From positions 1 through 34,632 of the forward strand of contig JACYME010000024.1 in NCBI GenBank assembly GCA_015272155.1: a stretch of DNA of 34,632 nucleotides, written 5' to 3'. The translations under genes and the position numbers were made by a program. The notes beneath the pieces were generated by a model. That model had not been told where the DNA came from. It was given only the letters and a program-made list of their open reading frames with translations, and searched no databases. Numbering within the stretch: the first letter of the stretch is position 1; the number at the start of each line of letters is the position of its first letter. The DNA comes from Leptolyngbyaceae cyanobacterium T60_A2020_046. Lineage in GTDB: Bacteria > Cyanobacteriota > Cyanobacteriia > Phormidesmidales > Phormidesmidaceae. This document shows, piece by piece, positions 1 through 5,961 of the stretch.

Positions 1-27
1 TCCAGTAATTTCAAGTATTCTGGAAGT
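1..27. other. Partial spacer (or array edge) at window start
   Basis: These 27 bases precede the first complete repeat. Complete spacers in the array are 33-37 nt, so this is most simply the 3' part of a spacer cut by the window edge, and the array continues to the left. A leader end cannot be excluded, but nothing here looks like an AT-rich leader. Confidence 0.6.
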
Positions 28-3000
28 GTTGTCCCCACACCCGTGGGGGTGAACCGCTTAAGCAGGCCATCCAGTTTGCCAAAGTCAGCTGTTGTCCCCA
101 CACCCGTGGGGGTGAACCGGCCTTGGGGACTGCCTCGGAGGAGGCAGGCTTGCGTTGTCCCCACACCCGTGGGGGTGAACCACCTATGCAAAACCAAACG
201 ATCGCACCATCCGCCGTTGTCCCCACACCCGTGGGGGTGAACCCCATCAGACGGCTTTTCCCCACGGCGAATAGCATCGTTGTCCCCACACCCGTGGGGG
301 TGAACCGTATTCAACGCAGCAAAAGATGCCGCCGACAAAATGTTGTCCCCACACCCGTGGGGGTGAACCGCTAGAGCCTGGTTTCTCAGTAATTCTATTC
401 CAAGTTGTCCCCACACCCGTGGGGGTGAACCGCCAGCGCCCCGAGCTCTCTGAGGCGGAATGCAGGTTGTCCCCACACCCGTGGGGGTGAACCGCGGCTG
501 TTGGCCGATATTGCCGCTCTCAAGGCCGTTGTCCCCACACCCGTGGGGGTGAACCTTCGAGGTTTCGCTCTTGCTCCCGTTCTTCTTTAGTTGTCCCCAC
601 ACCCGTGGGGGTGAACCCTCGTTCATCATTTGCTGCATGGACATCTCAGCGGTTGTCCCCACACCCGTGGGGGTGAACCGCCATCTCCAGCTCATGCCTG
701 GCTACCTCTAGCGTTGTCCCCACACCCGTGGGGGTGAACCATTTCCAGTGGTTCTCTGCCCACGCCCTACTAGGGCGTTGTCCCCACACCCGTGGGGGTG
801 AACCAACTGATTGGGTACATTAGGATTGTAGGTTCTGCGTTGTCCCCACACCCGTGGGGGTGAACCTGTGCATTGGAGAGTGCGCCAAGGTCGATATCCT
901 CGTTGTCCCCACACCCGTGGGGGTGAACCGTCTCAGAGGAACATGCAAGAGGGCTGATTCCCTTGTTGTCCCCACACCCGTGGGGGTGAACCGACCCAGT
1001 CACCAGAGAGAAAACCTATCCCAGCGTGTTGTCCCCACACCCGTGGGGGTGAACCTCCCCGTTTCAGTACCTCCAGGCCCTGTATCGGCGTTGTCCCCAC
1101 ACCCGTGGGGGTGAACCGCACAAGCACTCAAAATTGCCCGTGAGATTAGTCCGTTGTCCCCACACCCGTGGGGGTGAACCGTGCCTAATACATACTCGCA
1201 ACAGTCGTCTATATCGTTGTCCCCACACCCGTGGGGGTGAACCGGCCGTCCTTTGTTCGCCTTTCTATGTTTCGACTCGTTGTCCCCACACCCGTGGGGG
1301 TGAACCGCCCCATATCCACGACTTGTTGGCTTAGGTACGGAGTTGTCCCCACACCCGTGGGGGTGAACCGTTTCTCAAAACAAAGCCAGCAAGAACTATG
1401 ACAAGTTGTCCCCACACCCGTGGGGGTGAACCGAAGTCGAGCGTTTGGCTAACCTGGTAGATTTGCAGCGTTGTCCCCACACCCGTGGGGGTGAACCGTG
1501 AGGTTGGCCGTTGAGAGCAATTTGCAGGTCAGGTTGTCCCCACACCCGTGGGGGTGAACCATTTGGGTAGCCAACCACCGCCCCTTCTGAACTCCGTTGT
1601 CCCCACACCCGTGGGGGTGAACCAGTTGACCTGCGGACGGGGAAATACAACGGGTTTGGGTTGTCCCCACACCCGTGGGGGTGAACCTTGGATCAGCGGG
1701 CGATCGCGTCCAGCGCTGGATTGTTGTCCCCACACCCGTGGGGGTGAACCATGCTGATCGGCGCTGTTGCGCGCGCCTGTCGACCGTTGTCCCCACACCC
1801 GTGGGGGTGAACCTCCCCTCCCTGACCCCTACCCCCCCTGATCCATGGCGTTGTCCCCACACCCGTGGGGGTGAACCTGTTGAGTCCAAGATGTTTAACC
1901 CTGCTGCTGCTGGTTGTCCCCACACCCGTGGGGGTGAACCGATCACGCCAGGAATCCCTGAGAGATCCAGCGGGCGTTGTCCCCACACCCGTGGGGGTGA
2001 ACCTAGCGATTCTTACCGGCAACTATCGGCTGCCCTGAGTTGTCCCCACACCCGTGGGGGTGAACCGCTAAACGAAGGTGAAAACCCTTAATAACTAAAG
2101 TGTTGTCCCCACACCCGTGGGGGTGAACCGGGTTTCAGCACCCCCCGTCCCCTAGTTTTGCGTCGTTGTCCCCACACCCGTGGGGGTGAACCGCTGCCCG
2201 GCTAACCACAGCGTCGCATCGAGCCCGTTGTCCCCACACCCGTGGGGGTGAACCGAACTGGCACGAACCAGCCAGGCAAAATGGAGCCGTTGTCCCCACA
2301 CCCGTGGGGGTGAACCGTCCTCGGCACAACCCAGGTACTACTGGAGTTCAGTTGTCCCCACACCCGTGGGGGTGAACCGACGGGCATCGCCGGCTAGAAC
2401 GGTTGCTACGGGGTTGTCCCCACACCCGTGGGGGTGAACCACCGTATTGGCGTAAGCAATTATTCCCTGACTATGTTGTCCCCACACCCGTGGGGGTGAA
2501 CCTCAGAATAGCTTCGCAAGTACAACCAGAGCCAAATGTTGTCCCCACACCCGTGGGGGTGAACCGTCATCTTCGGTAAGATACCACCCCGTCATTACAT
2601 GTTGTCCCCACACCCGTGGGGGTGAACCGAATGGTTCGCGCCGCAGCTTCAGAAAGTAACCGTGTTGTCCCCACACCCGTGGGGGTGAACCGTGGGCTCG
2701 AAAACTTTGGGATACCATCGCTGAAGTTGTCCCCACACCCGTGGGGGTGAACCGACGGGTTTTGACGCGGTAGGCATGGCGATTCAAGTTGTCCCCACAC
2801 CCGTGGGGGTGAACCATCGTCACCCTGTCGGAAATGTTACCAACCGTGGGTTGTCCCCACACCCGTGGGGGTGAACCGCGAGTATGCGGCATCCCGAGCA
2901 TTAGTCGGGCTAGTTGTCCCCACACCCGTGGGGGTGAACCGCTTGAGTTCAAGGAAACTTCGGATGCCTACGTTAGTTGTCCCCACACCCGTGGGGGTGA

Positions 3001-4694
3001 ACCGATTTATTTGGTAAACAACCTGAGCGCCTATGTTAGTTGTCCCCACACCCGTGGGGGTGAACCAGTTACCATCACTTATTGGGAAGCGGGCTCTGGT
3101 AGTTGTCCCCACACCCGTGGGGGTGAACCTTCGTATCGATAATCGTAGTTAGACGCTGCTAGCTGTTGTCCCCACACCCGTGGGGGTGAACCGAGAGAGA
3201 AGGCGATGTGAACGTATTTGCTGCATGGTTGTCCCCACACCCGTGGGGGTGAACCGCTCTGGGGTTAGCCTTGTCTACATTAAACGGATAGTTGTCCCCA
3301 CACCCGTGGGGGTGAACCTCGTCTACCAACTTCTTGGCGCGACGGATGGCAGTTGTCCCCACACCCGTGGGGGTGAACCGGCTACCAAACCGCCCCTGAT
3401 ATCGATGGAATCCGGTTGTCCCCACACCCGTGGGGGTGAACCGCCCGGCATGAACGGATAACCGGTGCCGATATGCCGTTGTCCCCACACCCGTGGGGGT
3501 GAACCTTTCATGCTGGCTTTGGCTAATGCTAAGACAATGCGTTGTCCCCACACCCGTGGGGGTGAACCGGGTTAACGGGCAGCTTGTTAAGGCATGGTCG
3601 AAAGTTGTCCCCACACCCGTGGGGGTGAACCGAGCTACAGTCGCAGGTTAGGAAATACTTGGGCTCGTTGTCCCCACACCCGTGGGGGTGAACCACTGGT
3701 ACCTAGCCCTAGTGGTGTGGCTGCTTTGGTTGTCCCCACACCCGTGGGGGTGAACCGGGTATCTCAATCTGTTTGGGGCATCTAGCAGATGTTGTCCCCA
3801 CACCCGTGGGGGTGAACCATTGTAGTGACAGCGTCAGACACATTCCCTAGTTCGTTGTCCCCACACCCGTGGGGGTGAACCGGAAAACAACGGTTTAGCC
3901 TTAGCTCGTGAGTTAGGTTGTCCCCACACCCGTGGGGGTGAACCATTTAACACCCTCGGAGACCATCCGCAATCCTAACGTTGTCCCCACACCCGTGGGG
4001 GTGAACCGAAATAGCGGAACTCACGCGATACCTAGTTGGCGAGTTGTCCCCACACCCGTGGGGGTGAACCTTCTTCGAGAGCTATTTCAGGCTATGGGCT
4101 ACTCCGTTGTCCCCACACCCGTGGGGGTGAACCGGTGCTTAGCTAGCGTTGATTTGCCTACGCGGTCGGTTGTCCCCACACCCGTGGGGGTGAACCGGGG
4201 GGATGGCAAGACCTCTCATCACGCGAGATGGTTGTCCCCACACCCGTGGGGGTGAACCGCGCTGGGGCGTTGTGGGAGAGAGAGCCTATCCATGTTGTCC
4301 CCACACCCGTGGGGGTGAACCGATCTGAAGTGCTGGCAGCAGTAGGTCGTCCGAAGTTGTCCCCACACCCGTGGGGGTGAACCGGATGGTGGCTGGCTAC
4401 TCAATTAGCGTGCGGGAGTTGTCCCCACACCCGTGGGGGTGAACCGGTCGATCTACGAACGGGGAAATATAACGCATTTGGTTGTCCCCACACCCGTGGG
4501 GGTGAACCGCAATTGACTGACGAGTACGGCCTCAGTGAGCAAGTTGTCCCCACACCCGTGGGGGTGAACCGGTCGGCTTCCCACAGCTAGAGAAAGCGTT
4601 TGTCGTTGTCCCCACACCCGTGGGGGTGAACCGCGAAGAGTTAACGATCACTCCGCATACAATAGCGTTGTCCCCACACCCGTGGGGGTGAACC
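28..4694 (+). CRISPR. Type I-E-style CRISPR array, 75 repeats and 74 complete spacers
   Basis: A 28-nt unit recurs 75 times, first at 28-55 and last at 4667-4694, and I saw no mismatch in any copy. It begins GTTGTCCCC, contains the hairpin CCCCAC-ACCC-GTGGGG and ends GGTGAACC. A following G is present after 49 of 75 copies. This matches the type I-E repeat plan (E. coli: stem closing in GGGG, then an 8-nt handle ending ACCG). Cas6e-like cleavage after the stem would leave the handle GTGAACC plus the 29th base. Spacer lengths, counted with a 28-nt repeat, are 33 nt (2), 34 (24), 35 (44), 36 (3) and 37 (1). By analogy with E. coli the array is transcribed on the + strand, with the leader and newest spacers to the left outside the window. 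The last repeat is undegenerated. No cas gene is visible, so the subtype rests on the repeat alone. Confidence 0.98.
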
Positions 4695-4740: not shown

Positions 4741-4755
4741 GACGGTTTCAACCTA

Positions 4756-4829
4756 CGGGACTGGCGCGATTCGAACGCGCGACCTGCCGCTTAGGAGGCG
4801 GCTGCTCTATCCTGCTGAGCTACAGCCCC
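4756..4829 (-). tRNA. tRNA-Arg (anticodon CCT)
   Basis: On the minus strand the 74 bases fold as a full cloverleaf. The acceptor is GGGGCTG with CAGTCCC (one G-U pair) and discriminator G. The D-arm stem is GCTC/GAGC. The anticodon stem is GCCGC/GCGGC around loop CTCCTAA, giving anticodon CCT that reads AGG. The T-arm is GCGCG/CGCGC around TTCGAAT. The 3' CCA is not encoded and would be added after transcription. The gene ends 61 nt from the last CRISPR repeat and faces it. Confidence 0.95.
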
Positions 4830-4840
4830 AAACATCCCAA

Positions 4841-4967: not shown

Positions 4968-5708
4968 TCATCGCGCCGCAGAACCGCGATAGATGCGCTC
5001 CGACTGTTGGCGCGAGAGGCGCGTAGCCCCCGGTAAGTAGCTCGGGGGGCTTGGAGCACGGTTCGCGATCGCAGCATCCGGGTCAATTTTGCTGTGGGGA
5101 GTAACAAAATCGTGCTGCTCAGAGTCGTAGGCCAGCACCTCACCGGTTTCAATCTTGTAAATCCAAGCGTGAATCGACAAATCGTCCCGATAGAGTTTAG
5201 AGCGAACCACAGGATAGGTTCGCAGGTTTTCGATTTGGGTTAAGACATTTTCAGCCACCAAGACATCGAGCATCTCCTCTTTCTTAAGGTGCGTGTAGTT
5301 GTCTTTTACCAGCTTGCGGGTCGCTTCGGTATAGCGCAGCCAGTTATAAACCAAGGGCATCTTTTCTTCGAGTTCCCCAAGCTGCAAGAGCCCCTTCATT
5401 GCGCCGCAGTGGGTATGCCCACAAACAATGACCTGTTTGATGTCAAGGGCTTCGATCGCGTATTCAATGGTTGCCCCTTCACCGCCATTAGTGGCCTCAT
5501 AGGGGGGAATGATATTGCCCGCATTACGAATCACGAACAGGTCACCGATATCGGCTTGGGTAATGAGTGCCGGATCTACACGGGAATCAGAGCACGCAAT
5601 GAAGAGTACGCGAGGATGCTGGCCCCGGCTCAGTTCCGCCATCAGGGCTTTGTGGGTGGGAACATACTTGCTTTGGAACTGTCGTAGCCCGCTGATCAGT
5701 TTTTCCAC
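4968..5708 (-). CDS. ccaA: Carboxysomal-type beta-carbonic anhydrase CcaA
   Basis: This enzyme interconverts CO2 and bicarbonate; in beta-cyanobacteria CcaA (IcfA) supplies CO2 to RuBisCO inside the carboxysome. Visible beta-CA signatures are CSDSRVDP (first zinc Cys, with the Asp/Arg dyad) and CGHTHCGAMKG (zinc His and Cys). After the catalytic domain the protein carries a tail ending in ERIYRGSAAR, which resembles the C-terminal IYRGNAS I recall for the PCC 7942 enzyme. That supports the carboxysomal subgroup. The frame has no ATG near the start. I chose GTG at 5708 because it aligns with the start of known CcaA proteins and has a GGAG ribosome site 9 nt upstream; TTG at 5732 is the alternative. 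The product is 246 aa, shorter than the roughly 270 aa of known CcaA, and the shortening is in the linker before the tail. It is a single gene; carboxysome shell genes are not nearby. Confidence 0.9.
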   Translation of the reverse strand: MEKLISGLRQFQSKYVPTHKALMAELSRGQHPRVLFIACSDSRVDPALITQADIGDLFVIRNAGNIIPPYEATNGGEGATIEYAIEALDIKQVIVCGHTHCGAMKGLLQLGELEEKMPLVYNWLRYTEATRKLVKDNYTHLKKEEMLDVLVAENVLTQIENLRTYPVVRSKLYRDDLSIHAWIYKIETGEVLAYDSEQHDFVTPHSKIDPDAAIANRAPSPPSYLPGATRLSRQQSERIYRGSAAR

Positions 5709-5717
5709 GCTGCCATT

Positions 5718-5721
5718 CTCC
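5718..5721 (-). promoter_or_regulatory. GGAG ribosome binding site deciding the ccaA start
   Basis: GGAG on the minus strand lies 9 nt before GTG at 5708 and downstream of the competing TTG at 5732, so it favours the GTG start. Confidence 0.5.
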
Positions 5722-5961
5722 GGTGCAATCAATTCGCCGAGTGCAATCGCCTGATTCCAGATGGTTAGACCTCGAATTCTGATGCTGGCGATCCCACCGG
5801 ACTCACATTATTAACCCATATCTCTGACCGAAGGAAACAAAAGTTTTGCTAATACCTGCAATTGCAGATGCTTTTTAATAGTGGGCTTAGAATCCGTAAC
5901 GTTCTGAGGCTTGGGCAGGGCGCGATCGAAGCCGGAGGAGCCTGGGGATGACTGGGCAACC

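Follow-up and report, generated by a model that had tools for sequence, protein, structure and literature searches.

Several described systems resemble the CRISPR locus analyzed here. In Synechococcus from microbial mats, changes in phage protospacers are silent or conservative relative to the cyanobacterial spacers (Heidelberg et al. 2009, PMC2612747). In Legionella, older and newer spacers are directed at overlapping sites of the mobile element LME-1, possibly as a result of priming (Rao et al. 2016, PMC5071653). The type I-E system of E. coli has a Cascade and adaptation gene set, adds new spacers leader-first and converts the last PAM base into the first base of the spacer (PMC10011333). 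VapE primase-helicases (PF05272) are carried by 30-50 kb cyanobacterial plasmids of Nostoc, for example pTCL26-01_D.

The locus lies at the start of a 34,632-nucleotide stretch of DNA (the window) from Leptolyngbyaceae cyanobacterium T60_A2020_046. The mat phage study compared one spacer with virome reads of a lysozyme-like gene. In contrast, two spacers of one array record two variants here, and the gene codes for a primase-helicase that plasmid-like elements use in replication. The LME-1 case involves other CRISPR types and a known recurrent mobile element, whereas our system is type I-E, the 5' register of the two spacers is exactly equal and the element is known only through homologues. 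The gene set and the leader-first order are shared with E. coli, and the first spacer base is probably PAM-derived here too. Unlike in E. coli, where spacers measure 33 nt, most spacers are 34-35 nt including the PAM-derived base, G is the first base in 48 of 74, and a HicA-like ORF is located between cas1 and cas6e. The target belongs to the same gene family as the Nostoc plasmid proteins, but these are only about 40% identical to VapE of a relative of the host (G045), and the closest homologues of the protospacer are found in the host's own family. The locus is a clear natural case of known type I-E behavior and not a new system. The identity of the target, the exact shared register in one array and the coincidence with a tRNA gene are new.

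The array and two related spacers

The window starts inside the CRISPR locus. The array contains 75 identical 28-nt repeats and 74 spacers (Table 1). Window positions 1-55 overlap the start of contig C210 as its reverse complement, and cas2 is directly upstream there. Positions 1-27 are therefore the end of the leader, and their interpretation as a spacer was rejected. The newest spacers are at the low-coordinate end. The genes on C210 are arranged, from the array, in the order Cas2e, Cas1e, HicA-like ORF, Cas6e, Cas5e, Cas7e, Cse2 and Cse1. All seven Cas proteins (Cas1e, Cas2e, Cse1, Cse2, Cas7e, Cas5e and Cas6e) score above the NCBIfam cut-offs. The core gene of Cas3 is located on a separate contig of the host genome, C113 (TIGR01587, 227 bits), and is free of stops. 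Judged from sequence, the system is type I-E and its array is intact. The HicA-toxin-like ORF in the operon is on the opposite strand (L009 1311-1703). In a relative, G051, a similar type I-E array is found near an integrase-like ORF and a TrwC-relaxase-like fragment (L042 101-2122), so type I-E loci in the host's family may often be located beside integrative elements.

Table 1. Positions of features in the window
Feature	Position	Strand	Remarks
Array leader end	1..27	+	reverse complement overlaps C210 1-55; cas2e directly upstream
Type I-E CRISPR array	28..4694	+	75 exact repeats; cas genes on adjoining contig C210
Spacer 15	930..964	+	VSEEHARGLIPF; thyX-like; 31/35 to host's own thyX, not identical
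Spacer 24	1498..1532	+	VRLAVESNLQV; possible second VapE-family site, sense; p = 0.0009 or 0.019 by profile
Spacer 26 (newer)	1624..1659	+	(A)GTTGAC...; peptide VDLRTGKYNGFG; 27/35 to spacer 71
Spacer 28	1751..1785	+	MLIGAVARACRP; possible third site, VapE domain, sense; p = 0.0007 per spacer
Spacer 71 (older)	4446..4480	+	(G)GTCGAT...; peptide VDLRTGKYNAF; 27/35 to spacer 26
tRNA-Arg(CCT)	4755..4830	-	adjoins distal array end; ARAGORN, Rfam tRNA
Carbonic anhydrase gene	4968..5732	-	flanks tRNA; Pfam Pro_CA

By analogy with E. coli, each 'spacer' most likely begins with a base that belongs to the PAM, as its last position. Of 29 spacers in two relatives whose repeat is the same or nearly so, 28 start with G. 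In our array, across window positions 56-4666, the spacers that do not start with G start with A (12), T (12) or C (2), and PAM use looks looser than in the arrays of the two relatives. Spacers 66-74 at the old end (window 4134-4666) all start with G; the other starts are found in the middle and new parts. Spacer 15 resembles the host's thyX. Some of the differences between the two are synonymous, and the host copy has T instead of G at the PAM-derived position. This spacer was probably taken from a foreign thyX.

Spacers 26 and 71, which are 45 spacers apart, are identical at 27 of 35 positions at offset 0 and share the same 5' register. Comparison of all spacers on both strands gives 20 matches for the second-best pair, and the best pair in 40 shuffled arrays has at most 22. 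The resemblance is far beyond chance, and the coordinates, register and identity in the original prediction were right. The two spacers differ at indices 0, 3, 6, 9, 12, 24, 29 and 30, and seven of these eight differences fall in one codon phase (permutation p = 0.002). If substitutions were random, at least one of the six frames would show no more than one amino-acid change in 0.4-1.4% of cases. The predicted count of third-position differences was correct, but the pair alone does not fix the frame as had been claimed. The reverse frame (N[P/A]LYFPVRRST) has an equal 7/8 third-position pattern and one amino-acid change, and it fits equally well, so the pair by itself leaves both strand and frame open. 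Codon usage indicates a weak preference for the forward frame.

The target gene and the invading element

No protospacer was found in phages or plasmids by nucleotide searches with the two spacers and with the entire array, and exact degenerate patterns in both frames had no match in IMG/VR. Scans of GTDB contigs produced 0 and then 13 matches. The latter were judged to be chance, and none of them was in a plausible mobile gene with peptide and frame both preserved. An exact or near-exact protospacer for spacers 26 and 71 was found in none of these collections.

The target was found in relatives of the host. A pattern for both frames, allowing two mismatches, was searched in 380 related genomes. 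In addition to two out-of-frame chance matches, it identified G022 (CPVCQAPNFKVDLRTGKYSGFSCTC) and G045 (CPVCNAENFKVDLKTGKYNAFGCDC), both in the forward frame and N-terminal in proteins that contain a VapE-like domain. A pattern extended with the Lys codon matched five loci outside the array (G022, G045, G032, G033 and G017) and no controls. All five are homologous N-terminal ribbons, in frame. The site variants KVDLRTGKYSGF, KVDLKTGKYNAF, KVDLKTGKYGTY, KVDLKTNKYSGF and KVDLKSGKYSGF are found in homologues from other genera of the host's family, and in all of them the peptide is located at one shared site of one gene family. These genes favor the predicted frame, VDLRTGKYN followed by G or A and then F.

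The site is part of an N-terminal zinc ribbon, CPVC-x6-NFK-VDL[RK]TGKY..-CxC, of VapE-domain primase-helicases. The wider motif CPVC/CPAC-x6-NFK-V...-CxC is in frame in G022, G045, G024, G033, G032 (two loci) and G017, and the conserved ribbon peptide is (K)VDL[RK]TGKY[NSG][GAT][FY]. Genes holding the site score 236 bits (L083) and 212 bits (L084) for PF05272, for which the cut-off is 25, and the Pfam VapE-like domain is found in the site-bearing proteins with an E-value of 1e-62 or better. At the nucleotide level, spacer 26 and the VapE gene of G045 are the closest match, with 29 of 36 positions equal. Spacer 71 matches the same gene at 26 nucleotides and its protein at 10 of 11 amino acids. 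Spacers 26 and 71 alone among the 74 score 55 against the element proteins, compared to at most 39 for 296 shuffled spacers. The host genome contains no copy of the site and no VapE homologue, and the same query matches 101 of the 380 relatives. Together these searches identify the target as a VapE-domain primase-helicase that serves the replication of plasmid-like mobile elements. The conserved ribbon peptide and the mainly synonymous differences agree with the expectation that the homologous genes are under purifying selection.

In all homologues seen, the peptide is preceded by K. The codon of this residue is AAG in G022, G045, G033 and G032, and AAA in G024, which agrees with the first bases G of spacer 71 and A of spacer 26. 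Because exact protospacers were not found, the PAMs of the actual invaders can only be inferred. They would be AAG for spacer 71 and AAA for spacer 26, both Lys codons. Both spacers had been expected to hit orthologous genes in the predicted frame, next to the same PAM. The homologues agree with this in frame, and their Lys codon is AAG or AAA.

In G022, a member of another genus of the host's family, the VapE gene is accompanied by genes for a TrwC relaxase, a Rep3 initiator, ParA, ParB, an excisionase-like ORF and a tyrosine integrase, suggesting an integrated plasmid-like element. The relaxase, Rep3, ParA and ParB score above the Pfam cut-offs, and the integrase below (20 vs 27 bits). This element is homologous to the source of the spacers but is not that source itself. 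Relatives of the VapE gene are found on Nostoc plasmids and, in parts, in the Synechococcus phages S-CBS4 and S-LBS1. As far as the actual invaders can be judged from homologous sequences, they resemble plasmids and are not clearly viral.

Two probably independent acquisitions at one site

The best explanation, with a probability of about 0.9, is that diverged plasmid-like homologues of one VapE gene were sampled twice at one site. Purifying selection on the zinc-ribbon peptide would leave mainly synonymous differences between variants, so that the later spacer resembles a recoded version of the earlier one. At a first encounter, the source of the old spacer 71 would have been a variant whose Lys codon, AAG, served as PAM. 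At a later one, spacer 26 would have come from a variant with AAA. This PAM is non-consensus, which, like the failure to find an exact or near-exact protospacer, counts against the explanation.

The second acquisition could have taken place in two ways. We give an even chance to plain repeated naive sampling, in which a same-site pair arose by chance among 74 spacers, as would be expected if one element family supplied a sizeable share of them. An element of 36-45 kb contains roughly 1,000-1,500 AAG sites, and about 2 same-site pairs are expected if all 74 spacers came from one family, fewer with more families. However, few other spacers match the element family, which lowers this expectation, and the suggestive cluster of spacers 24, 26 and 28 is not predicted by naive sampling.

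Primed adaptation would refine the best explanation, and we consider it possible at somewhat less than even odds. Spacer 71, partly matching the later variant, may have recruited Cascade-Cas3 to it and set off a same-strand burst of acquisition that produced spacers 28, 26 and 24. Spacers 24 and 28 are located two places on either side of 26, rank in the top five for VapE similarity in each of the two profile scans and resemble the sense strand, like 71. Spacer 28 shares 25 of 35 nucleotides with the VapE gene in L103. The type I-E system of E. coli draws primed spacers from the same strand as the priming protospacer (PMC10011333), and overlapping protospacers of old and new spacers in Legionella have been read as priming (PMC5071653). 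The positions of the mismatches are also consistent with priming. Cascade leaves every sixth base unpaired (PMC12871591). With the PAM-derived base as position 0, the two protospacers differ at 3, 6, 9, 12, 24, 29 and 30. If base 0 is PAM-derived, four of these seven are at the unread positions 6, 12, 24 and 30 (hypergeometric p = 0.0035), leaving as read mismatches only 3, 9 and 29 in addition to the PAM change, so that spacer 71 could weakly recognize the later variant and prime acquisition.

Several observations argue against priming. The enrichment at unread positions is not significant when only wobble positions are considered (p = 0.18). The matches of spacers 24 and 28 are suggestive only, and their family-wise p is about 0.05 at best. 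In one scan, spacer 57 falls between them in rank, and in the other the opposite-strand spacer 27 does. Spacers 25 and 27 gave no convincing match to the element genes. Over 90% of the spacers acquired by priming in E. coli have an AAG PAM (PMC6568314), whereas spacer 26 implies AAA. On balance, the matches suggest that spacers 24 and 28 may represent further VapE sites and that spacer 71 may have primed their acquisition. Since chance among many spacers or priming can explain the resampling, no special hotspot is needed. The proposal of repeated attack by one virus or plasmid family holds with a plasmid-like family, rather than a known virus, as the invader.

It is very unlikely that the spacers target another protein with a similar peptide, or a reverse-frame peptide. 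DLRTGKYN-type strings do occur in portal and sheath-like proteins in IMG/VR, and lax patterns there returned a T4-like tail protein (L015), sheath-like proteins and a P22-like portal (L055). The portal failed tests with phage homologues and with a profile, which gives the spacers 4-6 bits compared to 12.8 for L055 itself. In portals, neither the [GA]F ending nor the upstream Lys is present, and the spacers encode V at a position where portals have a near-invariant N. The VapE ribbon fits the whole peptide, the upstream Lys included. Matches to the reverse-frame peptides were spurious.

Duplication of one spacer within the array followed by mutation would account for the shared register and 77% identity of the pair, but it can be dismissed: the 75 identical repeats limit divergence to at most 0.14% per site (95% upper bound) vs 23% for the pair, the neighbors of 26 and 71 are unrelated and so were not duplicated as a block, and the changes follow codons and agree with natural variants of a real gene. 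With duplication rejected and homologous gene variants identified, it follows strongly that spacers 26 and 71 are independent acquisitions from diverged homologues, as the original prediction had proposed.

The tRNA-Arg(CCT) locus and the record of invasion

The array ends 60 bp from a tRNA-Arg(CCT) gene, with a carbonic anhydrase gene next to it. In G022, the integrase of the element is located about 130 bp from tRNA-Arg(CCT), again followed by a carbonic anhydrase gene (L085 12353-14482). No att direct repeat of the tRNA end was found around the G022 element or in the host genome. This one genome, G022, suggests that the array may occupy an integration site of the targeted element family. 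A more far-reaching idea, which we consider improbable, is that the array is located at the tRNA-Arg(CCT)/carbonic-anhydrase integration locus of the element family and also repeatedly samples a drift-tolerant protospacer. The PAM phase would place every second wobble base at a position unread by Cascade, and synonymous escape would be hard. If true, this memory would be located on the entry route of one element family and would also be tuned to it.

Most spacers of environmental cyanobacteria have no known source. Here, a diverged spacer pair used as a miniature coding alignment, combined with degenerate searches in relatives, led to the target family where nucleotide searches had failed. This approach can be used on other arrays. 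The locus also provides a natural type I-E case of an outdated and a newer spacer at one site. The pair makes the roles of unread sixth positions and of AAA vs AAG PAMs in priming directly testable.
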